This document shows, piece after piece, positions 1-13,621 of a stretch of DNA of 13,621 nt (positions are counted from its first letter, which is position 1; the number at the start of each line of letters is the position of its first letter). Source of the stretch: Planctomycetota bacterium (GTDB lineage: Bacteria > Planctomycetota > UBA1135 > GCA-002686595); NCBI GenBank assembly GCA_011524785.1, contig WTJQ01000386.1, positions 1 through 13,621 on the forward strand, in the 5' to 3' direction. A program made the translations under genes and the position numbers. Under the pieces are notes generated by a model. That model did no database searches. It was not told the origin of the DNA and saw only the letters and a program-made list of their open reading frames with translations.

Positions 1-681
1 GAGCAGGCCCGCGCCGCTCGCGAGGTCGCGTCCCTCGCCGAGCAGGGCCTCTCCGGCCGCGGGCTCGACCTCTGCTGCGGCCATGGCCGGCACCTCGTGG
101 CCATGCGGCCCGCTGGGGTCGATGCCCATGGTCTCGATCTCTCGCACGAGCTGCTCGTCCGCAGCCCGGGCCTCGAGGGCGGGGCGACCGTCCAGGGCCG
201 CATCGTGCGCGGCGACCAGCGCGCGCTGCCCTTCGCCTCGGAGAGCCACGACGCGGTCGCGCTGCTCTTCAGCTCCTTCGGCTACCACGACGACGCGGGC
301 GACCTCGGCGTGCTGCGAGAGGTGCGGCGCATCCTGCGGCCCGGCGGCCGCGTGTTCCTCGACCTGATGAACCCCCCGCGCATCCGGACGACCCTGGTTC
401 CGGAGAGCCGCCGCGAGCGGCAGGGGCTCGCGCTCGAGGAGTCCCGCTCTCTCAGTGAGGACGGTCGCCGCGTGCGCAAGCGCGTGACCATGCGGGACCC
501 CGAGGGCGGCGAGCGCTCGTGGATGGAGGACGTGCGCCTCTACGAGCCGGGTGAGCTGGACGCGGCTCTTCGAGCTGCCGGCCTGGCGACCCGCGCGCGC
601 TTCGGGGACTTCGAGGGCGCGGCGTTCGACGCGGCCGCGGCCCGCCAGCTCGTGGTGGCCGAGGCCGTCCAGGGAGCCTGA
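1..681 (+). CDS. class I SAM-dependent methyltransferase, 5' end missing
   Basis: The reading frame is open from the first base of the window, so the gene begins to the left; 226 C-terminal residues are visible, ending at TGA 679-681. The SAM-binding glycine loop (motif I) is seen as DLCCGHGRH at visible residues 23-31, followed by an acidic position in AHGLDLS (motif II), then ALPFASESHDAV and FSSFGY (motif IV region) and VLREVRRILRPGG (motif V/VI). This order is that of the Methyltransf_25/11 fold, which moves a methyl group from S-adenosylmethionine to a small-molecule or protein acceptor. ATG 97 is not the true start, because it would cut off motif I. The substrate cannot be told from sequence. 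The protein is soluble with no membrane segment in the visible part. The 3' neighbour is 179 nt away, so it is probably not co-transcribed. Confidence 0.85.
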   Translation, partial: EQARAAREVASLAEQGLSGRGLDLCCGHGRHLVAMRPAGVDAHGLDLSHELLVRSPGLEGGATVQGRIVRGDQRALPFASESHDAVALLFSSFGYHDDAGDLGVLREVRRILRPGGRVFLDLMNPPRIRTTLVPESRRERQGLALEESRSLSEDGRRVRKRVTMRDPEGGERSWMEDVRLYEPGELDAALRAAGLATRARFGDFEGAAFDAAAARQLVVAEAVQGA

Positions 682-699
682 GCAGGGCTGGGGGGCGCA

Positions 700-744
700 T
701 CGCCGGGTCGTCTTCATGACCTGGGACATGTGGTCGCCGGGTCG
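700..744. repeat. pair of 11-bp direct repeats upstream of the acyl-CoA dehydrogenase gene
   Basis: TCGCCGGGTCG occurs at 700-710 and again at 734-744, 34 bp apart start to start (about three helical turns). It lies in the 179-nt gap before the acyl-CoA dehydrogenase gene. A second short repeat, GGGGGCGCC, occurs at 764-772 and 800-808. In DNA this GC-rich such repeats can arise by chance, so a regulatory role is only a possibility. Confidence 0.3.
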
Positions 745-779
745 GCTCGCCGCCGGTGGGACCGGGGGCGCCTTCGAGC

Positions 780-785
780 TATCCT
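780..785 (+). promoter_or_regulatory. possible -10 element for the acyl-CoA dehydrogenase gene
   Basis: TATCCT is the only AT-richer hexamer in this GC-rich gap and sits 75 nt before the ATG at 861. No convincing -35 hexamer is seen 16-18 nt upstream (TGGGAC at 757-762 is the nearest). This is a weak call. Confidence 0.2.
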
Positions 786-860
786 CGCGGAAGCACGCAG
801 GGGGCGCCGAAGGCTCGAGAGCCGCTCACGCCCCTGCCGAGTCCCCTCGATCCGCACCCC

Positions 861-2108
861 ATGGAACACACCAACGTCGTCTTCTCCGACAAGGCCAAGG
901 AGCTCCAGGCCATCGCCCGCAGGATCGCTGACGAGCACGTCCGACCGCTCGCCGCGAAGTACGACAAGGCGCAGGAGTACAACTACGAGGCGGCGCGGGC
1001 CGTCGCGGAGGCAGGACTCTTCCGGACCTTCATCCCCGAGGAGTACGGCGGCCATGGCGCCGGCGTCCTGGCCCTCTCCCTCGTGGCCGAGGAGCTCGCG
1101 AAGGCGGACAGCGGCTTCGGCGTGGCCTTCGCGGTCAACGCGCTGGGCTCCTTCCCGATCATCCTCGGGGGGACCGAGGAGCAGAAGAAGCACTGGCTCC
1201 CGCAGATCGCCGCTGGCGACAAGTTCGTGGCGTTCTGCCTCTCCGAGAAGTTCGCCGGCTCGGATGCGCAGGGACTGTCGGTGCGTGCCTACGAGGACGG
1301 GGACGACTACGTCATCTGCGGCGAGAAGAAGTGGACCACCAACGGCGGCGTCGCGGACGTCTACTCGGTCTTCGCCGTGACCGATCCGGAGTCCAAGTCG
1401 CGCCGCATCAGCGCCTTCATCGTCGAGAAGGGCACCCCCGGCTTCGAGGTGAAGAAGGTCGAGGACAAGATGGGCATCCGCTGCGTCCCCGTCGTGGAGA
1501 CGCACTTCGATCACGTGCGCGTGCCGAAGGCGAACCTCATCGGTGGGCGCGCCGGGCTCGGCTTCCGTCACGCCATGTCGACCCTCGACTACGCCCGCCC
1601 GGGCGTGGCCGCTCAGGCCGTGGGAGCCTCCCAGGGGGCCCTCGACCTCGCCAACGTGTACGCCAACCGTCGCAAGCAGTTCGGCGTGCCCATCAGCAAC
1701 CACCAGATGGTCCAGCAGATGATGGCCGACATGGCGATGAAGACCGAGGCCGCGCGACGCCTCGTCTACACGGCCGCCGCGGGCATCGACGAGTCCGGGC
1801 CCTCCGCGCTCAACAGCAAGATGGCCGCGATGGCCAAGTGCTTCGCGACCGACGTGGCGATGGACGTCGCCACGGACGCGGTGCAGGTGTTCGGCGGCTA
1901 CGGGTTCATGGAGGACTACCCCATCGCCAAGTTCTTCCGCGACGCGAAGATCCTCCAGATCTACGAGGGCACCAACCAGGTGCAGCGCCTGGTGATCGCG
2001 CGCCACCTGATCCGGGAGTCCGGCGAGCTGGAGCACCTCCAGCAGTTCATCCCGCACGAGGAGCAGCTGCCGTACTCCGACGAGCCCGTCGGATCGCGGA
2101 ACCTGTGA
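861..2108 (+). CDS. acyl-CoA dehydrogenase
   Basis: This 415-residue flavoprotein of the acyl-CoA dehydrogenase family would oxidise an acyl-CoA to the trans-2-enoyl-CoA, passing electrons to electron transfer flavoprotein. The helical N-domain starts at FSDKAKELQAIARRIADEHV; FIPEEYGGHG is a family signature. The FAD/substrate strand motif is FCLSEKFAGSDA (residues 125-136), followed by WTTNGGVAD from residue 158. The C-terminal helical domain contains RKQFGVPISNHQ and ends in YEGTNQVQR, with Glu369 in the position of the catalytic base. The start at ATG 861 matches the usual family N-terminus; in-frame upstream codons add no family sequence. There is no Shine-Dalgarno site before it. The C-terminus runs about 30 residues past the usual family end. 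Chain-length specificity cannot be assigned. The gene stands alone, closed by a hairpin terminator, with no ETF or hydratase gene beside it. Confidence 0.92.
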   Translation: MEHTNVVFSDKAKELQAIARRIADEHVRPLAAKYDKAQEYNYEAARAVAEAGLFRTFIPEEYGGHGAGVLALSLVAEELAKADSGFGVAFAVNALGSFPIILGGTEEQKKHWLPQIAAGDKFVAFCLSEKFAGSDAQGLSVRAYEDGDDYVICGEKKWTTNGGVADVYSVFAVTDPESKSRRISAFIVEKGTPGFEVKKVEDKMGIRCVPVVETHFDHVRVPKANLIGGRAGLGFRHAMSTLDYARPGVAAQAVGASQGALDLANVYANRRKQFGVPISNHQMVQQMMADMAMKTEAARRLVYTAAAGIDESGPSALNSKMAAMAKCFATDVAMDVATDAVQVFGGYGFMEDYPIAKFFRDAKILQIYEGTNQVQRLVIARHLIRESGELEHLQQFIPHEEQLPYSDEPVGSRNL

Positions 2109-2141
2109 GCCCGGGGCCGGCGACCGCCGGTCCGGAACGCC

Positions 2142-2180
2142 CTGCGAGCCCGCTCGAGTCGAGCCGGGCTCGCAGTTCTA
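2142..2180 (+). terminator. hairpin terminator after the acyl-CoA dehydrogenase gene
   Basis: The arms CTGCGAGCCCG (2142-2152) and CGGGCTCGCAG (2165-2175) are perfectly complementary over 11 bp, and the inner bases can add a further GCTCG/CGAGC stem after a one-base bulge. The short T-containing tail TTCTAT follows at once. It begins 33 nt after the stop codon. The U-tract is weak, so rho help may be needed, but in this GC-rich DNA it is a good intrinsic terminator candidate. Confidence 0.7.
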
Positions 2181-2509
2181 TGAGCGCTCTGCAGATCGGG
2201 CAGATTGAGGCCCCTGTCGCAGGCAGGGCGGGGCCCAAGTGGCGGGCTTTCTTCTGCCCTGACCGTTCGTTCAGGGGATCTTCTGGCGCTTGGGCAAGGG
2301 CCCAACGCGCGCACGGCCCGCGCATCTGCGACATGCTGTCACAGAGACCCCAAGTTTTCGCCAAGTCCTGCCCACCTGAGCGGCCCGCCGGCGAATCAAC
2401 CCCTGAAGACACCTCTTCCGTCAGCGGTAGGGATTCCCTTCGTGGGGGCCCAGGCGGGGAGGTCCCTCACCGGAACAAGCCCCCTGGGCTTCCAGGGCAG
2501 ATCAAGACC
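2181..2509 (+). other. non-coding, hairpin-rich leader of the sigma factor gene
   Basis: No gene is supported here. The stretch has many A/T bases at would-be third codon positions, unlike the flanking genes. Several hairpins can be drawn: CCCTGA/TCAGGG at 2257-2262 and 2271-2276 (8-nt loop); TTGGGC/GCCCAA at 2290-2295 and 2300-2305 (AAGG loop), extended by GCGC/GCGC across a bulged C to span 2286-2310; and CCCTGG/CCAGGG at 2482-2487 and 2492-2497 (GCTT loop). The last ends 12 nt before the sigma factor ATG, exactly where a ribosome would bind. The motif CCAAGT occurs three times. No recognisable tRNA, riboswitch or clear promoter was found. It may be a long 5' untranslated region or hold a small RNA. 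Confidence 0.4.
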
Positions 2510-3655
2510 ATGGCGACCCCCCCCCTGCTGACCATCGAGGAGGTCGACGCCAAGCTGGACGGCTGGGCGGACGACCACGAGCGCTTCTCCGGCCGCATCA
2601 AGCGGTGGGCCCGGCGCCTGAACCGGGAAGGTCGCTCCCTCGAGCTCTCGGCCCCCGGGGACTGGCGTGACGCGCGCCCCGAGATCCCTGGCGTCGCCAC
2701 GATCGAGGACCAGCTGCGGGCCGAGATCGACTCGATCACGATCATGGACCGCGAGGAGGAGGCCCGCCACGCGCGCCGCCTCGAGCTCGCTCGCATGCGC
2801 CTCGACTTGGCTCTCGAGCAGCACGGTCTCGAGGAGCAGGAGGTCGACGGCCGCATCTGCTACGACCCCCAGACCTTCCGGGACGTGGAGCCCGAGGCCT
2901 GCGAGCTGCCCGTCGACCTCTGCGACCGCTGGAAGGAGCTCCACGCGCTCCGGACCGAGCTCGTCGAGCGCAACCTCTACCTCGTCCTCATCAACGTCGA
3001 GCGGTACGCGCACCTCGGCGTGCCGCGCCTGGACCTCGTCCAGGAGGGCTCCGCCTCGCTCTTCCGCGCCGTCGACGGCTTCGACTGGCGACGCGGCCTG
3101 CTGTTCCGCACCTACGCGGTCCACTGGCTCAACCAGGCCTTCCGGAGCCACCTCTACAACCACGGCCAGACCGTCCGGATCCCCGTCTACCTGCAGAAGG
3201 CCATGCGGCACGTGAAGGCCGCCATCGCCCGCATCGGGGACCCGAACGCCTCCGCCGCTCGCATCGCCGAGGTCTCCGGCCTCGGGGTCCACATCGTCGA
3301 GAGCGCCCTCGCGGCCTCGCGCTCGACCCTCTCCATGGACGCCAGCGGCAAGGACGACGACGGCCCGGGCCTCGTCGAGGCCCTCGGCTACGAGGACCCC
3401 GATGGGCTCTACGACGTCTCCATGGAGGACGTCACCCTGGAGCAGGGCCTGGGCGAGGCCCTGGATCGACTCTCGGACCGCGAGCGCTTCGTGGTCGAGC
3501 GCCGCTACGGGCTGGGCTCCTTCCAGGAGCAGACCCTCTCCGAGGTCGCCTCGCAGATGGGCGTGAGCCTGGAGCGCGTGCGGCAGATCCAGATGCGGGC
3601 TCTCGGCAAGCTCCGCACGCCCACTCTCCGGAAGGCGATCGATCCCTTCCTGTGA
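2510..3655 (+). CDS. sigma-70 family RNA polymerase sigma factor (RpoD-like, alternative)
   Basis: This 381-residue protein would direct RNA polymerase to promoters. A region 1.2-like stretch, MDREEEARHARRLE, ends near residue 92. Region 2 runs from about residue 155 (NLYLVL), through DLVQEG (175-180), to VRIP near residue 223. Region 3 covers about 230-295. Region 4 starts near 311 and ends in the helix-turn-helix TLSEVASQMGVSLERVRQIQ (from residue 342). Regions 3 and 4 make it a group 2/3-type sigma factor, not an ECF. It lacks the long region 1.1 and non-conserved region of a housekeeping RpoD. Region 2.4 is altered (see findings). ATG 2510 is chosen because codon use becomes gene-like there; an in-frame ATG at 2180 exists, but the extra sequence does not look coding. 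No Shine-Dalgarno site is present. Target genes are unknown. Confidence 0.9.
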   Translation: MATPPLLTIEEVDAKLDGWADDHERFSGRIKRWARRLNREGRSLELSAPGDWRDARPEIPGVATIEDQLRAEIDSITIMDREEEARHARRLELARMRLDLALEQHGLEEQEVDGRICYDPQTFRDVEPEACELPVDLCDRWKELHALRTELVERNLYLVLINVERYAHLGVPRLDLVQEGSASLFRAVDGFDWRRGLLFRTYAVHWLNQAFRSHLYNHGQTVRIPVYLQKAMRHVKAAIARIGDPNASAARIAEVSGLGVHIVESALAASRSTLSMDASGKDDDGPGLVEALGYEDPDGLYDVSMEDVTLEQGLGEALDRLSDRERFVVERRYGLGSFQEQTLSEVASQMGVSLERVRQIQMRALGKLRTPTLRKAIDPFL

Positions 3656-3897: not shown

Positions 3898-3906
3898 CGA
3901 GCCTCG

Positions 3907-5001
3907 ATGAGACCGCCGAGCACGCCGCCCTCGCCAGCCCTCCTGCTCCAGGACGGACAGGATCCCCGGACCCGCGCTGCGGCGGCCCGGGCGCTGGACG
4001 CGCGGTCGCTGCGCGCCGTCTTCATGGACCTCGTCGGCCGGCCGCCCCGCCGGGCCGAGGCGCAGGAGTGGCTCGGGCGCGGCCGTGGCGAGCTGCTCGA
4101 CGACCTGCTCGGGAGCGAGGAGTTCTGGGCCCACTGGTGGCACGAGCAGCTCTACTACTTCCTGCTCATCGACAACTTCCGTCCGCGCACGCGGGCGGCG
4201 AAGGAGGTGCCGACGAAGCTCGCGGAGGGGCGCCTCCACTACCGCGACGCCCTCCACCAGGCGGCCCTCACCCCGACCTTCGACCTCCGCAACCCCGGCG
4301 CCGACACCTTCGTGACCGTCGTCATGGAGCAGTTCTGCGGGGTCGTGGTCCAGGACCGTGCGAGCGAGCTGGAGATCGGCAAGGTCGCCTACGAGGGGGG
4401 CAAGGGCCGCTTCCTGGGGACCACCGCGGAGAACCAGGCCGACGTCATCCGGATCTGCGTCGAGCACCGGGACGCCTCGCGCCACTTCCTCGCGCGCGAG
4501 CACCAGCGGCTCCTCCGCCGCGACCTGGAGCGCAAGCAGCTCCGCAAGGACGCAGGCCGCCTCCACCGCGATCCCTGGGCCTACCTCGCTCTCGTCCGCG
4601 AGTGGCTGCTGTCGGAGGCCTACGACGAGCGCCTCGCCGCCCTCGTGCCCAAGTCGAACAGCCTGTTCGTGCGCTGCCTCTTCGTGGACCTGCTCGATCG
4701 CCTGCCCGAGGACGACGAGCTGGAGCCCATGCGCAACGCCCTGGACGGCCTGGCGGACTCGCGCCCCCTGCGGTCGGTCGTGGTGCGCCTGCTGCTCGAG
4801 TCCGGGCGCGCGGCCGTCCCCGCCAAGGCGGCGATCGAGGACCCCACGCGCTGGATCGGCCAGCAGTTCCCGCGCTTCCTGGGCCGTGAGGCCACGCCCG
4901 AGGAGCTGCGCGTGTTCGTCACCGCCTTCCACGAGGAGGGCTGCGAGCCCAGCACCATCCTCTACGCGCTCCTGTCGCACTCGGAGTACCAGTCCTACTG
5001 A
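3907..5001 (+). CDS. DUF1549-like protein with three internal motif copies
   Basis: This 364-residue protein has no known catalytic function. Residues about 35-76 (LRAVFMDLVGRPPRRAEAQ, then LLGSEEFWAHWW) resemble the start of the planctomycete DUF1549/PSCyt2 domain, whose usual form is a Leu-Gly-Arg/Leu-Pro-Pro turn, a helix, and a short 'ASPRYGERWARHWL'-like end. Related pieces recur at about 255-302 (VRCLFVDLLDRLPEDDEL) and 316-364 (FLGREATPEEL, ending in LLSHSEYQSY). No CxxCH haem motif, signal peptide or membrane segment is seen. DUF1549 proteins are commonly encoded next to DUF1501 proteins, as here: the next gene starts 4 nt after this stop. ATG 3907 is preferred over the in-frame 3847 because the latter adds only 20 non-conserved residues and overlaps the likely promoter. 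The alternative is a DUF4214-type repeat protein. Confidence 0.7.
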   Translation: MRPPSTPPSPALLLQDGQDPRTRAAAARALDARSLRAVFMDLVGRPPRRAEAQEWLGRGRGELLDDLLGSEEFWAHWWHEQLYYFLLIDNFRPRTRAAKEVPTKLAEGRLHYRDALHQAALTPTFDLRNPGADTFVTVVMEQFCGVVVQDRASELEIGKVAYEGGKGRFLGTTAENQADVIRICVEHRDASRHFLAREHQRLLRRDLERKQLRKDAGRLHRDPWAYLALVREWLLSEAYDERLAALVPKSNSLFVRCLFVDLLDRLPEDDELEPMRNALDGLADSRPLRSVVVRLLLESGRAAVPAKAAIEDPTRWIGQQFPRFLGREATPEELRVFVTAFHEEGCEPSTILYALLSHSEYQSY

Positions 5002-5005
5002 CGCC

Positions 5006-6160
5006 ATGCACGCCAACCTCTCCCTCGACCGCCGCGCGCTCCTGCGCGCCTCGACGCTCCTCGGCGCGGGCGCCGCACTTCCCTCCGGGCTGCTGGCGCA
5101 CTCGCTCGCGCCGCTGCGGCCCGATCGGCGCACCAAGCGCGTGGTCCTGATCGCCTTCGCGGGTGGCGTCCGGACCCGAGAGACCTTCGGGACCCCGGCC
5201 AACGTGCCGAGCCTGCGCCAGATGGCCGACGAGGGCGTCCTCTACACGAACGTCGCGACGTCCAACCTCGGCCACTTCGGGGCGACCATGTCGATCTTCA
5301 CCGGGATCTCGGAGCCGCGCGGCATCCGTGAGAACGCGCGCGGGAACGACCCGACGCTCTTCGAGTACCTCCGCAAGGGGCTCGCCCTCCCCAAGCAGGA
5401 CGTCTGGGTCACCACCACTGGCGGCGCGCAGCAGGTGAACTACTCCTACAGCCTGCACCCCGAGTACGGCGTGAAGTACGGCGCGAACATCCTCGACGGC
5501 GACGGGATCTTCAACAAGGAGTTCAAGGACCTGCTCAACGACTGGGGCATGCCACAGCCCGTGGAGGCGCGCGAGCGTGCGCTCCTCGATCGCCTGCGGC
5601 GCGGCGTGGGCGGCGGGGAGGACGCGGCCCGCGAGGCGGAGCAGCTCGCGCGCGTCGAGGACTACATCCTCGGCGAGCTCAGTCGTGGCACCACCGACAT
5701 CTCCGGCGCGGCCGCCGGGGACCGCAAGGCGCTGCGGCTCGCTCGCAACCTGCTCAGCCTCTTCAAGCCGCGCATGCTTGGCGTCGTGCTCCAGAACGCG
5801 GACGTGGCCCACGGCAGCTTCAACGCCTACAGCGAGGTCGTGCGCCAGAACGACGCGGCGATCGGCGAGCTGATGACCGCCATCCGCGAGGACGAGGAGC
5901 TGCGTGACTCGACCGCGGTCCTGGTGGTCCCCGAGTTCGGGCGCGACCGCGACCTGAACAGCCGCCGGGGTCTCGACCACGGGGACGGCTCGGACGACCT
6001 GCGGCGCGTCAGCTGCGTCGCCTGGGGCCCGGACTTCAAGAGCGGCGTCGAGAGCGGCCGCGACCAGCGCGTCATCGACGTGGTCGGCACCGTCTGCGAC
6101 GTCTTCGGGACCGAGGCCCCGCTCGCCAAGGGCGGTCGTCTCCAGGGTCTCTACGCCTGA
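5006..6160 (+). CDS. Tat-exported DUF1501 family protein (alkaline phosphatase-like fold)
   Basis: This 384-residue protein begins with a twin-arginine signal: LDRRALLRAS (Arg9, Arg10), then a small hydrophobic stretch rich in Gly/Ala, suggesting export in folded form. After VVLIAFAGG (to residue 54), NVPSLRQMADEGVLYTNV and ATMSIFTGISEPRGI follow the pattern of the alkaline phosphatase/sulfatase superfamily. Near the C-terminus PEFGRDRDLN and GLDHGDG (residues 309-328) match the DUF1501 signature 'GEFGRTP...GRDHW'. The family's usual 'GGPSHLDTFDPKP' is replaced by GGVRTRETFG at residues 53-62. The protein is shorter than many family members. It lies 4 nt after the DUF1549-like gene and 8 nt before the cytochrome gene, with no Shine-Dalgarno site, so translation is probably coupled. 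Reaction and substrate are unknown. Confidence 0.8.
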   Translation: MHANLSLDRRALLRASTLLGAGAALPSGLLAHSLAPLRPDRRTKRVVLIAFAGGVRTRETFGTPANVPSLRQMADEGVLYTNVATSNLGHFGATMSIFTGISEPRGIRENARGNDPTLFEYLRKGLALPKQDVWVTTTGGAQQVNYSYSLHPEYGVKYGANILDGDGIFNKEFKDLLNDWGMPQPVEARERALLDRLRRGVGGGEDAAREAEQLARVEDYILGELSRGTTDISGAAAGDRKALRLARNLLSLFKPRMLGVVLQNADVAHGSFNAYSEVVRQNDAAIGELMTAIREDEELRDSTAVLVVPEFGRDRDLNSRRGLDHGDGSDDLRRVSCVAWGPDFKSGVESGRDQRVIDVVGTVCDVFGTEAPLAKGGRLQGLYA

Positions 6161-6168
6161 CCCCCTCC

Positions 6169-9100
6169 ATGCACCGGATCTCGTCGCGCATGCGCTGGCT
6201 CGCGCTGGCCGTGGGGCTCGCCCTCACGGGGCTGGTCGAGCGCGTGCCGGCTGCTGGGCCCGGCACCCGCGGCGTCCTCGTGGGAGCGCACTTGGCGAGC
6301 GGCACGTCCGTGATGGGGACCGCCTACCAGGACGGCGGCGTGGGGCAGGACCCCCCCGCGATCGCGACCCAGCCCGCCCCTGAGGGGGAGGGCTCGAACG
6401 GCTGCCTCGCGTGCCACGTGGGGATCGAGGACATGCACCCGTGGCAGGAGCTCTCCTGCGTCGACTGCCACGGGGGGGACGCCAGCGCCAAGGACAAGCT
6501 CAGCGCGCACGTGCCCGAGCCGGAGCTCGACGACGACGAGCGGGTCCTCCCCATGGACCGCGACCTCACCTGGCTCCGGTTCCGCAACCCCTCCGACCTC
6601 CGCGTGGTCGACGTGACCTGCGGCACCTGCCACGCCGACCTCTGCAGCGACCTCTTCCTCAGCCTGCACGGCACCACGGCGGGTCACCTCTCCGACGGCT
6701 TCTACGAGATGGGCCTGACGAAGGAGAAGGGCTCGCTCTACGGGGTCTTCCCCGTCCCTGGTCACCTCACGGACGAGGGCGAGGTCGACCGCCTCGTCCA
6801 GCCGCCGGCGTTCACGACCGCCGACGACGAGAACGAACTGGCCTCGCACTTCCCAGACCTCATCCGCAAGGAGTGCATGCAGTGCCACCTGTGGTCCGAG
6901 GGGCGCGCGGTCCGCGGGCGCCTCGGCTTCGACGGGGACTACCGGGGTGACGGCTGCGCCGCGTGCCACGTGCCCTACGCCGTGAACGGCCTCTCCGACT
7001 CCGCCGATCGCACCGCGAACCGGACCGAGCCGGGGCACCCGCGTCGCCATGCCATGACGGCGGCGCCCGCGACCGAGACCTGCGTGACCTGCCACTACGG
7101 GGACGCCTCGATCGGCCTGCACTTCCGGGGGCTCAGCCAGCTGCCTCCCGGTGCTCCCGGCGGCCCGGAGATCGAGGGCACGACCGAGAGCCCCCTCAAC
7201 CGCGTCTTCTACCTCGAGGACAACGAGCTCGCGCCGCCCGACGTGCACCACGAGCTCGGCATGCACTGCATCGACTGCCACGGGGTCGGGGACGTGATGG
7301 GGGACGGCGCGCTCCACGGCCAGATGGAGCACGCGGTGTCGATCAGCTGCGAGGCGTGCCACGGCGACTTCGAGGAGCGCGCGAGCCTCGTCACCGAGCG
7401 CGGGGAGCCGCTCGAGCACATGTGGAAGGAGGGCGCCGAGGTCTTCCTGCGCTCGAAGGTCACCGGGGAGGTCCACCGCGTGAAGCAGGTCGTCGACGTG
7501 CTCGACGAGGGCCACCGCGACCACTCGCCGGACGCGACGCGCGCGATGACGGGCGACCACGCCCAGCTCGAGTGCTACGCCTGCCACGCGGGCTGGAACA
7601 TCAACTTCCTCGGCTTCCACTTCTACCGGAACGAGGCCCTCACGCAGCTCGACCTGCTGAGCGGACGCCGCACGCCGGGGCGGGTGACCACCCAGGAGAA
7701 GGTCTTCACGACCTGGAAGTCCTTCTACGCGGGCCTCAACGAGAACGGCCGCGTCGCGCCCTACATGACCGGCTTCTCGACCATGGGGACCGTGGACGAT
7801 GCCGATGGCAACCGCCTGCTGGACCAGGCGATGCCGGTCACGCGCTCCGGGCGCTCGGGGATGAGCATGGTCCACCACCAGATGCACACCACGCGTCCCA
7901 CGGCGCGCAGCTGCGTGGAGTGCCACCGGACCAGTGGCACGTGGGGCATGGGGACCTCGAACTTCCGCCTGGGGCGTCAGGTCGCCTACGTCGCCGACCG
8001 ACGCGGCATCGAGGCCGTGGCGCTGAACCGGCAGGCCCTCACGGCCTCCGTCCCGCTGGCGAAGTTCGTGCTCCCGGACGTCATCGACCTCGAGCTCGCC
8101 TGCGATCCGCTGCAGGGGCACGGCACGCACCTGTTCGTGACGGAGGGCGGGCGCGGCGTCCACGTGCTGGACGTGTCCGACCCGTCCCACATGCGGCGCG
8201 TCGCCTTCCTCTCGACCCTCTCCCCGCGTGGCATGGCGCTCTCCGGCGATCACCTGCTGGTGGCGGACGGCGTGGGGGGCCTGCGGGTCCTCGACGTGAG
8301 CGAGCCGGCGAAGCTGGAGCAGGTCGGCCACCTGCCGCTGTTCGACGCCCACGAGGTGGAGGTGCGCTGGCCGTACGCCTACGTGGCCGACGGCGTCGGT
8401 GGACTGGCCATCGTGGACGTGCGCGAGCCCATCGCACCGCGTCTGGTGGGGGCCGTGAGCTGGCCCGGGGGCCGCGACGAGGTCGAGGCCATCGACCTCG
8501 ACCTGCTCTTCCAGTACAGCCGCCCCGAGACCGTCGCCGGGACCATCCCAGCGCCCTTCCGGAGCGACGCGAGCCACCTGTGCGCGGTGCTCGATCGGAC
8601 GCGGGGCCCGATCCTGATCGACGTGACCGAGCCCAGCCGACCGACGGTCGTCTACCCGCGCCGCAGCGGGGAGCGCTCCCGTGCGGTCCAGGACGGCCTC
8701 AGCTACCGCGGCCTCGCGCTGCGCAGCAAGGTGGACCTCGCCACGCCCCAGGGCGGCGAGCGCACCTGGGAGCGCGACTGCCTCTACGTGGCGGTCGAGC
8801 GCACCCAGGGCAACGGCGACCAGCGGACGCGGGTGCTCGCCTTCGACGTGAGCAACCCGGCGCGGCCCGAGCGCCTCGGCGACGTGGAGAGCGGGGACGC
8901 CTCCGAGATGCTCGCGCACGTCTCGCTCTACAACCAGCCCTTCCTCCAGCCGCTGGCCCTGGTGCCAGGGGACGAGGGGGTCTTCGTGACCGACCTCACG
9001 GTCAGCGCCGAGCCCAACCCGCTGGGGGTCCTGCCCGGCCTGCGCGACACGTACGCGATCTGCGTCGAGGAGTTCCCGCTGGACGCGATGGTCTCGCCCA

Positions 9101-10149
9101 CCGGCGAGCAGCTGAAGGACGTCAGCCATCCCGGTTCGCGCTGGCTCTACCCGCGTGAGATCGCCCGGCTCCTCGACGTGCCCGGCAGCGTGCTGGGGAC
9201 GATCGACGCCGACGAGGCCGCGCCGCCCATCCCCGGCGCCTCGGCGCGGGCCTTCTTCCAGCGCCTCGACCGCGATCGCAGCGGGCTCCTCACCGGGGAC
9301 GAGCTCCGCCGAGCGGGGCCGGGCCTGGACAAGAACGAGGACGGCCGCGTGACCCTCGCCGAGCTGGCGGAGACGGGGGCGGTCTTCAGCACGGGCGAGT
9401 CCCGTACGGACGAGGCGCCCGCGGGCTTCGGCAGCCCGCGCACGGAGCCCGACGGGGACCTGGCGCGCCTGTTCGATGGCGTCGACCCACTCGCCTTCGA
9501 TCGTGACGAGGACCGGCGCCTGGACCGCAAGGAGCTGGCGCGGGCCCTGTTCGCGGCCCTCGACCTGGATGGCGACAAGCGCCTCGATCGGCACGAGCTC
9601 TCGCGCCACCCCGGGCGCGCGCGCCAGATCCGCTACGGTGACGAGGGCGCCATGGCCGAGTTCGGCGCGCGGGACCTCAACCGGGGCGGCACCATCAGCG
9701 CCCGCGAGCTGCGCGTGCGCGACGCGGAGTGGGAGGCCCTCGACCGCAACCAGGACGGCTTCGTCCAGCTGGAGCCGGACCCGACCGCCGGCGATCGCTC
9801 GGGCCAGGCCGCGCGCCCGGACCCCGAGTGGCCGACCCGGCGTCCGCGGGCCCTGCCCCTGCCGCCCGACCTCACGGAGGAGCGCCTCCTGACCCTGGAC
9901 GGGAACGGGGACCGGACCCTGACCAAGCGCGAGCTCCGCCAGCGCCCGGACCTGTTCGAGGTGCTCGACCTCAACCGCGACGGCGTGGTCGAGGAGGGCG
10001 AGTGGACCCGCATCCTGAACCAGGTGCAGGGCGCGGGCGTGCGGCTGCTGGCGGACGGCTTCGAGGCGCGCTGGGACCTCGACGGGGACGGCCGCGTCGA
10101 GGACGACGAGCTGCCCGAGGCGGGCCGCATCCCTCTCGCTCGGCGCTAG
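6169..10149 (+). CDS. secreted ten-haem cytochrome c fused to LVIVD propeller and EF-hand repeats
   Basis: This 1326-residue protein has three parts. (1) A short basic N-terminus and hydrophobic segment (MRWLALAVGLALTGLV, then VPAAG) form a Sec-type signal; residues 79-586 carry ten CxxCH haem sites beginning at Cys 79, 97, 151, 236, 263, 305, 367, 394, 469 and 582. Nearby His residues (for example HHELGMH and MVHHQMH) could be distal ligands. (2) LVIVD-type beta-propeller repeats: three clear ones start near 654, 695 and 736 (each like HLLVADGVGGLRVLDVSEP), with weaker copies near 605, 802, 871 and 938. (3) Nine EF-hand-type loops lie between 1034 and 1314. The likely role is electron transfer outside the cytoplasmic membrane, with a binding or scaffold propeller and calcium-binding tail. 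Partners and electron acceptor are unknown. The start at 6169 lacks a Shine-Dalgarno site; ATG 6190 is a possible alternative. It closes the three-gene unit. Confidence 0.88.
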   Translation: MHRISSRMRWLALAVGLALTGLVERVPAAGPGTRGVLVGAHLASGTSVMGTAYQDGGVGQDPPAIATQPAPEGEGSNGCLACHVGIEDMHPWQELSCVDCHGGDASAKDKLSAHVPEPELDDDERVLPMDRDLTWLRFRNPSDLRVVDVTCGTCHADLCSDLFLSLHGTTAGHLSDGFYEMGLTKEKGSLYGVFPVPGHLTDEGEVDRLVQPPAFTTADDENELASHFPDLIRKECMQCHLWSEGRAVRGRLGFDGDYRGDGCAACHVPYAVNGLSDSADRTANRTEPGHPRRHAMTAAPATETCVTCHYGDASIGLHFRGLSQLPPGAPGGPEIEGTTESPLNRVFYLEDNELAPPDVHHELGMHCIDCHGVGDVMGDGALHGQMEHAVSISCEACHGDFEERASLVTERGEPLEHMWKEGAEVFLRSKVTGEVHRVKQVVDVLDEGHRDHSPDATRAMTGDHAQLECYACHAGWNINFLGFHFYRNEALTQLDLLSGRRTPGRVTTQEKVFTTWKSFYAGLNENGRVAPYMTGFSTMGTVDDADGNRLLDQAMPVTRSGRSGMSMVHHQMHTTRPTARSCVECHRTSGTWGMGTSNFRLGRQVAYVADRRGIEAVALNRQALTASVPLAKFVLPDVIDLELACDPLQGHGTHLFVTEGGRGVHVLDVSDPSHMRRVAFLSTLSPRGMALSGDHLLVADGVGGLRVLDVSEPAKLEQVGHLPLFDAHEVEVRWPYAYVADGVGGLAIVDVREPIAPRLVGAVSWPGGRDEVEAIDLDLLFQYSRPETVAGTIPAPFRSDASHLCAVLDRTRGPILIDVTEPSRPTVVYPRRSGERSRAVQDGLSYRGLALRSKVDLATPQGGERTWERDCLYVAVERTQGNGDQRTRVLAFDVSNPARPERLGDVESGDASEMLAHVSLYNQPFLQPLALVPGDEGVFVTDLTVSAEPNPLGVLPGLRDTYAICVEEFPLDAMVSPTGEQLKDVSHPGSRWLYPREIARLLDVPGSVLGTIDADEAAPPIPGASARAFFQRLDRDRSGLLTGDELRRAGPGLDKNEDGRVTLAELAETGAVFSTGESRTDEAPAGFGSPRTEPDGDLARLFDGVDPLAFDRDEDRRLDRKELARALFAALDLDGDKRLDRHELSRHPGRARQIRYGDEGAMAEFGARDLNRGGTISARELRVRDAEWEALDRNQDGFVQLEPDPTAGDRSGQAARPDPEWPTRRPRALPLPPDLTEERLLTLDGNGDRTLTKRELRQRPDLFEVLDLNRDGVVEEGEWTRILNQVQGAGVRLLADGFEARWDLDGDGRVEDDELPEAGRIPLARR

Positions 10150-10175
10150 GAGCGGGCAGCCTGTGCGATCCGGTC

Positions 10176-10212
10176 GCGGGGGCGCCGCTCGGGACCTCTC
10201 CGGGGCCCCCGC
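10176..10212 (+). terminator. possible GC hairpin after the cytochrome gene
   Basis: GCGGGGGC (10176-10183) and GCCCCCGC (10205-10212) can form an 8-bp stem with a 21-nt loop, 26 nt after the stop. There is no T-tract, and the DNA is very GC-rich, so this is a tentative terminator between the cytochrome gene and lipA. Confidence 0.3.
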
Positions 10213-10240
10213 ACGGGCACCCCCGGGACGGCCCCTTTGG

Positions 10241-10246
10241 TACCCT
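10241..10246 (+). promoter_or_regulatory. possible -10 element for lipA and the bkd genes
   Basis: TACCCT, preceded by TTTGG, lies 22 nt before the lipA ATG in a 119-nt gap. It is the only AT-richer spot there; no clear -35 hexamer is found. It would start a short leader. This is a weak call. Confidence 0.25.
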
Positions 10247-10268
10247 GCGGCGCTTCCCGGCATCGCCC

Positions 10269-11243
10269 ATGGACCCGATGAACGCCACTCCCACTGCCCA
10301 GGACCCGGTCACCCCGGATCCCGCGACGGGCAGGAAGCCGGAGTGGCTGAAGGTGCCGCTGCCCGGAGGGGAGGGGTACACCCGCCTCAAGGGGCTGGTG
10401 AAGGGGCTCGGCCTCCACACCGTCTGCGAGGAGGCGCGCTGCCCCAACATCGGCGAGTGCTGGCGCGGCGACCACGCGACCATGACGCTCATGGTGCTCG
10501 GCGACGAGTGCACCCGGCGCTGCCGCTTCTGCGCGGTCAAGACGGTCCAACAGGCCGCGCCGCCCGACCCCGACGAGCCGGCCCACGTCGGCCAGGCCGT
10601 GGCGTCGCTCGACCTCGAGTACGTCGTGATCACGAGCGTCGATCGCGACGACCTGGCGGACGGGGGAGCCGGCCACTACGCCGAGTGCGTGCGGCAGATC
10701 CGAACCCAGGCCCCGCGCACGATCGTGGAGACCCTGATCCCCGACTACACCGGGGCGCCGCTGGCGTCGCTGATGGACGCGCGTCCCGATGTGCTCGCTC
10801 ACAACGTGGAGGTCGTCCCGCGCCTGCAGCGCCGGGTCCGGGACCCGCGCTGCTCGTTCGAGCGCTCGCTCGAGACCCTGCGCGGTGCCAAGCAGGCCTG
10901 GCCCGGGACCTTCACCAAGTCCTCCCTGATGCTCGGGCTCGGGGAGTCGCACGACGAGGTCGTCACCTCGATGGAGCTCCTGCGCACCGCGGACGTCGAC
11001 TTCCTGACCCTGGGGCAGTACCTGCGGCCCACGCCCCAGCACGCCCCCGTGCGCGAGTACGTGACGCCCGAGCGCTTCGATGCGCTGGACCGCCTCGGGC
11101 GGGAGCTCGGGTTCAAGCAGGTCTCCTCCGGGCCGCTCGTGCGGTCGAGCTACAAGGCGGGTGAGCTGCAGGCGGCCCACCTGGTTCGAGAGCGGCGTCG
11201 CGCGGAGGCGGCCGCCGGCCGTGGCAACGGGGAGGCTCGCTGA
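10269..11243 (+). CDS. lipA: lipoyl synthase
   Basis: This 324-residue radical SAM enzyme inserts two sulfur atoms into protein-bound octanoyl groups, making the lipoyl cofactor of 2-oxo acid dehydrogenases. Both iron-sulfur sites are intact: the lipoyl-synthase-specific C-x4-C-x5-C is CEEARCPNIGEC (Cys53, Cys58, Cys64), and the radical SAM C-x3-C-x2-C is CTRRCRFC (Cys81, Cys85, Cys88). The C-terminal RSSY motif (Arg292-Tyr295) supplies the auxiliary-cluster serine ligand. The length is normal for the family. ATG 10269 is used; ATG 10278 is possible, as both lie in a non-conserved N-terminus. The gene lies 29 nt before the E1 alpha gene, so the enzyme that makes the cofactor is encoded with the complex that uses it. 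No lipB is in view. Confidence 0.96.
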   Translation: MDPMNATPTAQDPVTPDPATGRKPEWLKVPLPGGEGYTRLKGLVKGLGLHTVCEEARCPNIGECWRGDHATMTLMVLGDECTRRCRFCAVKTVQQAAPPDPDEPAHVGQAVASLDLEYVVITSVDRDDLADGGAGHYAECVRQIRTQAPRTIVETLIPDYTGAPLASLMDARPDVLAHNVEVVPRLQRRVRDPRCSFERSLETLRGAKQAWPGTFTKSSLMLGLGESHDEVVTSMELLRTADVDFLTLGQYLRPTPQHAPVREYVTPERFDALDRLGRELGFKQVSSGPLVRSSYKAGELQAAHLVRERRRAEAAAGRGNGEAR

Positions 11244-11259
11244 CCGGGAGTTCCCCGGC

Positions 11260-11265
11260 GAGGTG
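11260..11265 (+). promoter_or_regulatory. Shine-Dalgarno site for the E1 alpha gene
   Basis: GAGGTG lies 7 nt before ATG 11273 and decides between that start and the nearby in-frame ATGs at 11282 and 11285. It is one of only two clear Shine-Dalgarno sites in the window. Confidence 0.7.
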
Positions 11266-11272
11266 TGATCGC

Positions 11273-12385
<1,113 letters not shown>

Positions 12386-12405
12386 TCCCGAGACCCGCGA
12401 CACCC

Positions 12406-13380
12406 ATGGCGACCCTCACCCTGCTCCAAGCCGTCAACGACGCCCTGCGCACCAAGATGGCGCAGGACGACAGCGTGCTCGTGTTCGGCGAGGACGTCGG
12501 CCCGAAGGGCGGCGTCTTCCTCGCGACCGAGGGCCTCACCGCCGAGTTCGGCGCGCAGCGCTGCTTCGACACCCCGCTCTCCGAGGACGGGATCATCGGG
12601 GCTGCGATCGGGATGGCGGCCAACGGCCTCCGCCCGGTCTGCGAGATCCAGTTCCAGGACTTCATCTTCCCGGCCTTCGACCAGATCGTCAGCGAGGCCG
12701 CCAAGCTGCGCTATCGCTCCGGCGGCCAGTACACCGCGCCGATGGTGATCCGGACGCCCTACGGCGGCGGCATCCGTGGCGGCCTCTACCACAGCCAGTC
12801 CGGAGAGGCCTACTTCGCGCACACTGCCGGCCTCAAGGTGGTCATCCCCTCGACGCCCCACGACGCCAAGGGCCTGCTGATCGCCGCGATCGAGGACCCC
12901 GACCCGGTCCTCTTCATGGAGCCCAAGGCGCTCTACCGCTCCGTCAAAGGAGAGGTCCCGGAGGGGCACTACACGGTCGACCTCTCGACCACCCGGACGG
13001 TGCGCGAGGGCAAGGACGTGACGGTCTTCTGCTACGGCGCGATGGTGCCCGTCTGCGAGAAGGCGGCCCAGACGGCCGCCGAGCAGGGCGTCGAGGTCCA
13101 CGTGGTCGACCTGCGCACCCTCCTGCCGCTGGACGAGGAGGCCGTCCTCGACGCCGCCCGCCGGACCGGGCGCGTCGTGGTCGTGCACGAGGCGCCGCGC
13201 TTCTGCGGCTTCGGAGCCGAGATCAGCGCGCTCATCGCCGAGCACGCCATCGAGTACATGGAGGCCCCGGTGCGCCGCGTCACCGGGTTCGACACGCCCT
13301 TCCCCAACACCCTCGAACACCACTACATGCCCGACGAGCGCCGCGTCCTCGATGCCATCGAGGCCACGGCGTCCTTCTGA
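12406..13380 (+). CDS. bkdAB: branched-chain 2-oxo acid dehydrogenase E1 component, beta subunit
   Basis: This 324-residue protein completes the E1 heterotetramer: its N-terminal half joins the alpha subunit in forming the ThDP site, and its C-terminal transketolase domain helps bind E2. GEDVGPKGGVF near residue 28 and TPLSEDGIIGAAIGMA are E1 beta signatures. FQDFIFPAFDQIVSEAAKLR, LYHSQSGEA and FMEPKALYR closely resemble branched-chain E1 beta. The length is that expected for a separate beta subunit. The gene starts 20 nt after E1 alpha and ends 20 nt before E2, so the three are almost surely one operon. No strong Shine-Dalgarno site precedes ATG 12406. Confidence 0.93.
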   Translation: MATLTLLQAVNDALRTKMAQDDSVLVFGEDVGPKGGVFLATEGLTAEFGAQRCFDTPLSEDGIIGAAIGMAANGLRPVCEIQFQDFIFPAFDQIVSEAAKLRYRSGGQYTAPMVIRTPYGGGIRGGLYHSQSGEAYFAHTAGLKVVIPSTPHDAKGLLIAAIEDPDPVLFMEPKALYRSVKGEVPEGHYTVDLSTTRTVREGKDVTVFCYGAMVPVCEKAAQTAAEQGVEVHVVDLRTLLPLDEEAVLDAARRTGRVVVVHEAPRFCGFGAEISALIAEHAIEYMEAPVRRVTGFDTPFPNTLEHHYMPDERRVLDAIEATASF

Positions 13381-13389
13381 GCACCCACC

Positions 13390-13393
13390 AGGT
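13390..13393 (+). promoter_or_regulatory. Shine-Dalgarno site for the E2 gene
   Basis: AGGT lies 7 nt before ATG 13401, within the 20-nt gap after E1 beta. It is short but well placed and supports the chosen E2 start. Confidence 0.5.
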
Positions 13394-13400
13394 CCCTGCA

Positions 13401-13621
13401 ATGATCGAGTTCAAGCTGCCGGACATCGGCGAAGGCGTCGCCGAGGGCGAAATCGTGAAGTGGCTCGTCGCCGAGGGCGACGCGGTCCAGGAGCATCAGT
13501 CCGTGGTCGAGGTCATGACCGACAAGGCCACGGTCGAGGTGCCCGCGCCTGCCGCGGGGACCGTGGTCAAGCTCCTCGCTGGGGAGGGCGACACGATCCC
13601 CGTCGGGGACGTGATCTTCCA
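13401..13621 (+). CDS. bkdB: branched-chain 2-oxo acid dehydrogenase E2 (dihydrolipoamide acyltransferase), 3' end missing
   Basis: Only the first 73 residues are in the window; the frame is still open at the right edge. They form a complete lipoyl domain: FKLPDIGEGVAEGEI at the start, then VVEVMTDKATVEVPAPAAGT with Lys42 as the lysine that carries the lipoyl group, and a closing VGDVIF strand. E2 is the core of the complex: its lipoyl arm takes the acyl group from E1 and transfers it to CoA. The MTDKATVE context is typical of branched-chain E2. The peripheral-subunit-binding and catalytic domains, and probably an E3 gene, should follow outside the window. It is downstream of lipA, whose product modifies this lysine. 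Confidence 0.92.
   Translation, partial: MIEFKLPDIGEGVAEGEIVKWLVAEGDAVQEHQSVVEVMTDKATVEVPAPAAGTVVKLLAGEGDTIPVGDVIF

Follow-up and report, generated by a model that had tools for sequence, protein, structure and literature searches.

A conserved planctomycete gene unit encoding a decahaem protein with an LVIVD-type propeller and a calcium-type EF-hand partner

Introduction

Multihaem wires are already known, as are propellers and EF-hands. As a passage of PMC5877670 describes, extI, the porin gene of the Geobacter cluster that encodes ExtM, is linked to selenite and tellurite reduction. In hydrazine synthase, according to an excerpt of PMC12758564, seven-bladed propellers serve a haem enzyme. 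Here, we describe gene C, which lies in a 13,621-nucleotide stretch of DNA from a Planctomycetota bacterium (contig WTJQ01000386.1; the whole stretch is hereafter the window) and which encodes a ten-haem domain, an LVIVD-type propeller and an EF-hand tail in one frame. The product is a real, conserved decahaem-propeller protein with a calcium-type partner, and it is found inside a defined gene unit, A-B-C(-D). In the open-licence literature, the titles, starts of abstracts and passages searched contained no description of a multihaem LVIVD fusion with calcium repeats.

The DUF1549/DUF1800 and DUF1501 families are paired in the Planctomycetes-Verrucomicrobia-Chlamydiae (PVC) group. In the portion of PMC5615132 that deals with PSCyt genes, their function is given as not known, and PSCyt2 and PSCyt3 are said usually to adjoin families of unknown genes. 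The A-B-C unit provides a concrete, testable set of partners for relatives of these unexplained families, and the conserved trio points to an undescribed electron-handling complex of the planctomycete cell envelope.

Results

Protein C is encoded by a single open frame (Table 1), in keeping with the original prediction, which had placed ten haem motifs, a propeller and nine calcium loops in one uninterrupted, exported protein. Domain searches bear out the three parts. LVIVD (Pfam PF08309) is matched in three stretches with 61.1 bits against a cut-off of 20.2, which makes C a member of that family; Cytochrome_C7 is matched with 29.9 bits against 24.8; and four Pfam EF-hand families exceed their cut-offs, which together with eight strict loops places the tail among the EF-hands. 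The N-terminus resembles a Sec signal peptide, as judged by eye, and C is probably exported.

The ten CxxCH motifs noted earlier in C are all there, at residues 79, 97, 151, 236, 263, 305, 367, 394, 469 and 582. In 1000 composition shuffles, the mean was 0.018 motifs and the maximum was one. The ten motifs are complete in each of 59 aligned rows, the window copy among them, and column conservation is higher in the haem domain (0.70) than in the propeller (0.53). Eleven additional histidines are invariant in these rows (90, 114, 167, 173, 290, 294, 360, 464, 484, 570 and 573), and this number would suffice for the distal ligands of ten bis-histidine haems. No CxxCK motif occurs in the window protein or in 120 relatives among the matches listed. 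A wire is therefore the favoured reading of the haem domain, as the ligands are sufficient and CxxCK is lacking. The same evidence bears on a rather unlikely alternative, in which C catalyses the reduction or oxidation of a small molecule, such as an oxyanion or nitrogen compound, with one haem as the active site and the propeller gating or channelling substrate as proposed for the beta subunit of hydrazine synthase. With eleven free invariant histidines for ten haems, a five-coordinate haem is not implied, and the missing CxxCK also argues against such an enzyme.

The ExtM profile NF040943 aligns to residues 74–596 of C with an E-value of 6.5e-57. The scores, 193.1 bits with the protein and 188.4 bits in the genome search, are both below the equivalog cut-off of 800, and by this profile the haem part is ExtM-like and is not ExtM. 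The source genome contains cytochrome c assembly genes and a haem-copper oxidase. A CxxCH-type DNA pattern was counted 129 times across this genome, versus 82 for the reversed control. Separately, two more clusters of eight such patterns (G000:C83:2767-5496 and G000:C14:15644-16792) probably represent further multihaem proteins.

Behind the haem domain, AlphaFold2 predicts a beta-propeller at residues ~601–970, with a predicted local distance difference test (pLDDT) score mostly above 90 in this block. Thus, structure prediction places a propeller between the haem and EF-hand parts. The closest solved-structure matches of this region are seven-bladed propellers, in line with the seven blades guessed earlier. 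A second structure model has 30 strands in it. Two conserved islands, FQYSRP and ERDY, are located at residues 781–873, both outside the LVIVD repeats, and by eye this region is a candidate interface. By analogy with hydrazine synthase, where seven-bladed propellers serve a haem enzyme, a gating role for the propeller of C is possible. However, many unrelated propellers score equally to the hydrazine synthase chain 5c2v_B, which weakens this line of support for a small-molecule enzyme.

Copper propellers, such as those of nitrous oxide reductase and thiocyanate dehydrogenase, carry a conserved cluster of histidines on the propeller. A copper site of this type was considered for C and rejected, as there is no such conserved cluster. 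Past residue 596, only H987 is conserved in at least 85% of the 59 rows (55 rows), followed by H665 (35), H651 (25) and H695 (24).

The C-terminal part has eight strict EF loops, at residues 1034, 1054, 1111, 1132, 1169, 1244, 1267 and 1303, counted with a custom-written pattern. Shuffling residues 976–1326 1000 times gave a mean of 0.41 strict loops and a maximum of three. Nine calcium loops had been claimed: eight are canonical and the ninth, at residue 1192, is degenerate, as P replaces its terminal acid and a strict loop is present there in only five of 43 aligned rows. The EF-hand part putatively binds calcium.

Gene neighbourhoods were examined in the best 80 loci from a scan of named genomes that gave 329 relatives of C, and remote forms are therefore under-sampled in the counts that follow. 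At 50 of the 80 loci, C ends with at least three EF loops, and at the other 30 it does not. The same three-part order thus recurs in other genomes, as had been proposed. Among the 30, six stop at a contig edge (L048, L051, L056, L061, L098 and L102), the sequence of L088 stops 359 bases past C, and L059 and L070 appear frameshifted. In all 21 testable loci, a separate gene, D, is found downstream of C on the same strand, which was the strand searched. Gene D is an open reading frame with six to 14 EF loops. In 15 of these loci, a start codon for D shares four bases with the C stop codon, and in L071 and L077 there is one within 14 bases. In L078, L096, L097 and L100, the first start codon of D is 117 to 586 bases from the C stop; for L097 and L100, C is itself aligned only to about residue 765. 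By eye, 20 of the 21 D proteins have a signal-like start, L074 being the exception.

The fused tail and D align over 285 columns with an hhalign probability of 99.95, a value that overstates their kinship, as EF-hand profiles and repeats match one another easily. The EF-hand part can thus be separated from C while staying linked to it. The description of C as calcium-stabilised is accordingly weakened: a sister lineage encodes this part in its own gene downstream of C, which makes it a linked partner and not an obligate brace. On a tree of fused (40 rows) and split (19 rows) forms, at least two changes are needed per label, while only one is forced by the starred branches; L048 and L088 were labelled from sequence that is truncated at a contig end. 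The number of fusion or fission events is not settled by this tree.

Upstream of C, B is on the same strand in 73 of the 80 loci, which supports the DUF1501 neighbourhood that had been named as a mark of a defined system. It was not found at L032, L033, L057, L069, L077 and L088, where the sequence begins at C, and at L078, which is a true miss. A is present in 65 of the 80 loci and is invariably upstream of B. It was not found at the seven loci without B or at L045, L083, L086, L087, L094, L095, L096 and L098; upstream sequence is scant at L086, L096 and L098. In the window, A runs to 5001 and B from 5006 to 6160, and C begins at 6169. In 27 loci (22 split-type and five divergent fused, of the L072 type), the 25 largest sense-strand families were compared: A recurs in 17 loci and the B/C/D cluster in all 27, and no other sense-strand family recurs outside the five divergent fused loci. 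These five also have lipA and pyruvate dehydrogenase genes in common as neighbours. A-B-C(-D) is a conserved gene unit. Frames of ~1690 to 1740 residues in some genomes had hinted at a fusion of B and C; this was rejected, as the two genes are in different frames and no in-frame fusion occurs in the 80 loci.

Both upstream genes are related at a distance to families known from the PVC group. At an E-value of 0.01, 35 rows of A match PSCyt2/DUF1549 (29), PBS linker (23), DUF4214 (20), DUF1800 (8) and DUF1553 (5), and the A of the window scores 23.4 bits with PSCyt2/DUF1549 against a cut-off of 29.8. A has no CxxCH motif, and a few of its relatives (L043 and L068) have a signal-like start by eye. 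At the same threshold, 28 rows of B match DUF1501 (25), phosphodiesterase (16), the twin-arginine translocation (TAT) signal (13) and sulfatase (10). The B of the window just misses the DUF1501 cut-off (26.5 bits versus 27) while the source genome has 15 DUF1501 matches above it elsewhere, some of them fragments, and B is therefore a distant branch.

These relationships raise the question of whether the A-B-C unit takes part in degrading sulfated polysaccharides or other polymers, a role that has been suggested for PSCyt genes, and uses C as its electron sink. The distant kinship of A and B to PSCyt2/DUF1549 and DUF1501 is consistent with such a role, as are the match of the B profile to sulfatases (E-value 8.6e-9), the further DUF1501 matches of the genome and the frequent location of sulfatase genes near PSCyt genes in freshwater Verrucomicrobia, as stated in a section of PMC5615132. 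Nevertheless, we regard this role as very improbable. Read against the catalytic motifs of the phosphatase superfamily, the alignment of B shows neither the usual nucleophile nor a complete metal site; and beyond A and the B/C/D cluster, no neighbour family among the 25 largest was seen to recur in the 27 loci outside the L072-type ones.

The coordinates of the unit and of the parts of C are collected in Table 1. The unit is flanked in the window by genes for a methyltransferase, an acyl-CoA dehydrogenase and a sigma-70-type factor (1–3655) and by lipA and pyruvate dehydrogenase genes (10150–13621), and parts of this neighbourhood recur at many fused-form loci.

Table 1. Features of the A-B-C unit and of protein C in the window
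Feature	Position	Strand	Description or basis
Gene A	3904..5001	+	~365 aa; like PSCyt2/DUF1549, DUF1800, DUF4214; no signal peptide evident by eye
Gene B	5006..6160	+	DUF1501-like (alkaline phosphatase/sulfatase superfamily); twin-arginine type N-terminus
Gene C	6169..10149	+	1326 aa; decahaem + LVIVD propeller + EF-hand fusion
Putative Sec signal peptide, residues 1-29	6169..6255	+	Sequence, by eye
ExtM-like ten-haem domain, residues ~77-590	6397..7938	+	Motifs, profile, alignment
Seven-bladed LVIVD-type propeller, residues ~601-970	7969..9078	+	Pfam, predicted structure, structure matches
Candidate interface, propeller region, residues 781-873	8509..8787	+	Two conserved islands (FQYSRP, ERDY), by eye
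EF-hand tail, residues 1020-1326	9226..10146	+	Profiles, alignment; counterpart of sister-lineage gene D
Eight canonical EF loops and one degenerate (residue 1192)	9268..10110	+	Loop pattern, alignment

Protein C is conserved. A protein search gave 437 relatives, of which the best 120 were listed: 111 have ten haem motifs and nine have nine. The last haem is followed by three or more EF loops in 119 of them, that is, in all but P0027 (990 residues). All six other genomes of the same genus match C. So do 111 of 151 genomes of the same class at an E-value of 0.001, a permissive threshold at which other multihaem proteins are picked up as well, and 47 of 392 genomes across the phylum at 1e-60. 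Relative to L023, the closest named relative, the ratio of non-synonymous to synonymous substitution rates (dN/dS) is 0.142 for C (haem 0.073, propeller 0.128, tail 0.193), 0.15 for A and 0.067 for B. Chance or an assembly artefact was rejected as the source of C, given these low ratios and the terminal EF loops at 50 of the 80 loci. Stop codons are found inside the match in a few copies elsewhere (e.g. G129 and G048). Biochemistry may be within reach, as the finished chromosome of strain Poly30 (L041), which we take to be in culture, carries the fused form of C.

A sister family was found with L103 (P0121–P0240, the best 120 of 417 matches); by the names given, its members are from Phycisphaerae and other Planctomycetota. 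The haem spacing is similar to that of C and LVIVD is found in many members, while among the 120 listed there are 11 haem motifs in 105, ten in 14 and 12 in one. DxNxDG loops occur within the last 150 residues of 72 of the 120. Unlike C, with its EF-hands, these proteins match Dockerin_1 (18 of 120) or TSP_3 (6 of 120), so that calcium-type repeats have joined the haem-propeller core in more than one form. Six members were scanned individually: Dockerin_1 is over its cut-off in three and just under it in a fourth (22.3 versus 22.9), and P0227 and P0205 have TSP_3 over the cut-off together with a C-terminal IPTL-CTERM motif (24.4 bits in P0227 and 16.9 bits in P0205; the cut-off of 20.8 is exceeded only in P0227). 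The ends of these two proteins hint at surface sorting. A and B were not found by tblastn at L103 or L104, the two sister-family loci checked. Separately, two same-class multihaem LVIVD proteins differ in length and haem arrangement (L108:1957-5964 and L113:801-4214), and two ExtM-like proteins without an LVIVD match have 11 (L107:3612-6437) and 12 (L105:3278-5752) haem motifs.

The possible surface features of the sister family bear on a further explanation, in which C is a porin-cytochrome type of conduit that leads to extracellular acceptors at the outer surface. The signal-like N-terminus and multihaem wire of C would suit this role, calcium-type repeats and also the IPTL-CTERM motif seen in two sister-family relatives would suit the cell surface, and a porin-multihaem system has been proposed in Verrucomicrobia, as mentioned in a passage of PMC5615132. 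A classical outer-membrane conduit is not supported, however, as no porin of the MtrB family was found in the 79%-complete source genome. Porin_O_P is matched there only once, over a short stretch (22.1 bits, cut-off 20.9), and no other recurring gene family was seen in the A-B-C-D unit. Consequently, we consider a conduit of this kind quite improbable.

Discussion

The explanation that we favour is that C is an exported electron-transfer protein. Its ten haems, most or all of them probably bis-histidine, would make up a wire of the sort expected for Geobacter ExtM. The seven-bladed propeller behind the wire would hold a partner, perhaps by docking A or B, or orient a substrate. The EF-hand part, fused here and encoded by the coupled gene D elsewhere, would assist in folding, in assembly or in positioning within the envelope. 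A and B, as distant relatives of DUF1549/DUF1800 and DUF1501, would be the dedicated partners of C, and the complex may be located in the periplasm or at the surface. Taken as a whole, this reading of a decahaem electron-transfer module, a propeller scaffold and a calcium partner that act with A and B in the envelope has, in our judgment, an even chance of being correct.

Several observations weigh against this explanation. The unit contains no redox partner gene, and the haem score is far under the ExtM cut-off. The propeller dominated the lists of solved-structure matches, so that the haem fold was not searchable separately; the VIA match ranges seldom extend into the haem region and the Foldseek ranges never do, which is no evidence of absence. 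The A of the window has no clear signal peptide by eye and may stay cytoplasmic, which counts against a complex placed entirely in the envelope. In addition, A was not found in six loci that have room for it upstream, and in L043, L076, L080 and L081 it is 1.0 to 3.6 kb from B. The easy matching of EF-hands inflates the apparent kinship of tail and D, and the tail motifs EWP and SR.P are missing from the 21 D proteins. Finally, good genomes without C exist in the same family (e.g. G001, G011 and G041), and C is therefore not essential.

A bolder extension, which is speculative and on balance doubtful, is that A-B-C-D is an undescribed envelope redox machine, in which the decahaem wire and its fused propeller are combined with a degenerate partner of phosphatase fold and with a protein that acts as a calcium switch. 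Here, electron flow or assembly would depend on calcium, and members of the 11-haem family would have taken on other calcium repeats to the same end.

Four described systems resemble parts of this one. The solved chain of the YVTN surface-layer propeller (1l0q) is described as a propeller with PKD domains, with no haem domain named. The beta subunit of hydrazine synthase (5c2v) shares with C a seven-bladed propeller that is tied to haem subunits, but it is a separate, haem-free subunit and its sequence similarity to C is weak. The PSCyt2 (DUF1549)/DUF1800 and DUF1501 systems are matched weakly but repeatedly by A and B. They differ in that here the A and B of the window are below the Pfam cut-offs and the haems are in a third gene. 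The ExtM of the Geobacter ext cluster is, like C, a multihaem cytochrome and its profile covers the whole run of haem motifs. ExtM has 12 haems and C has ten; the context of ExtM is the ext cluster, whereas the neighbours of C are A, B, lipA and pyruvate dehydrogenase genes; and the propeller and EF-hand tail are extra in C.

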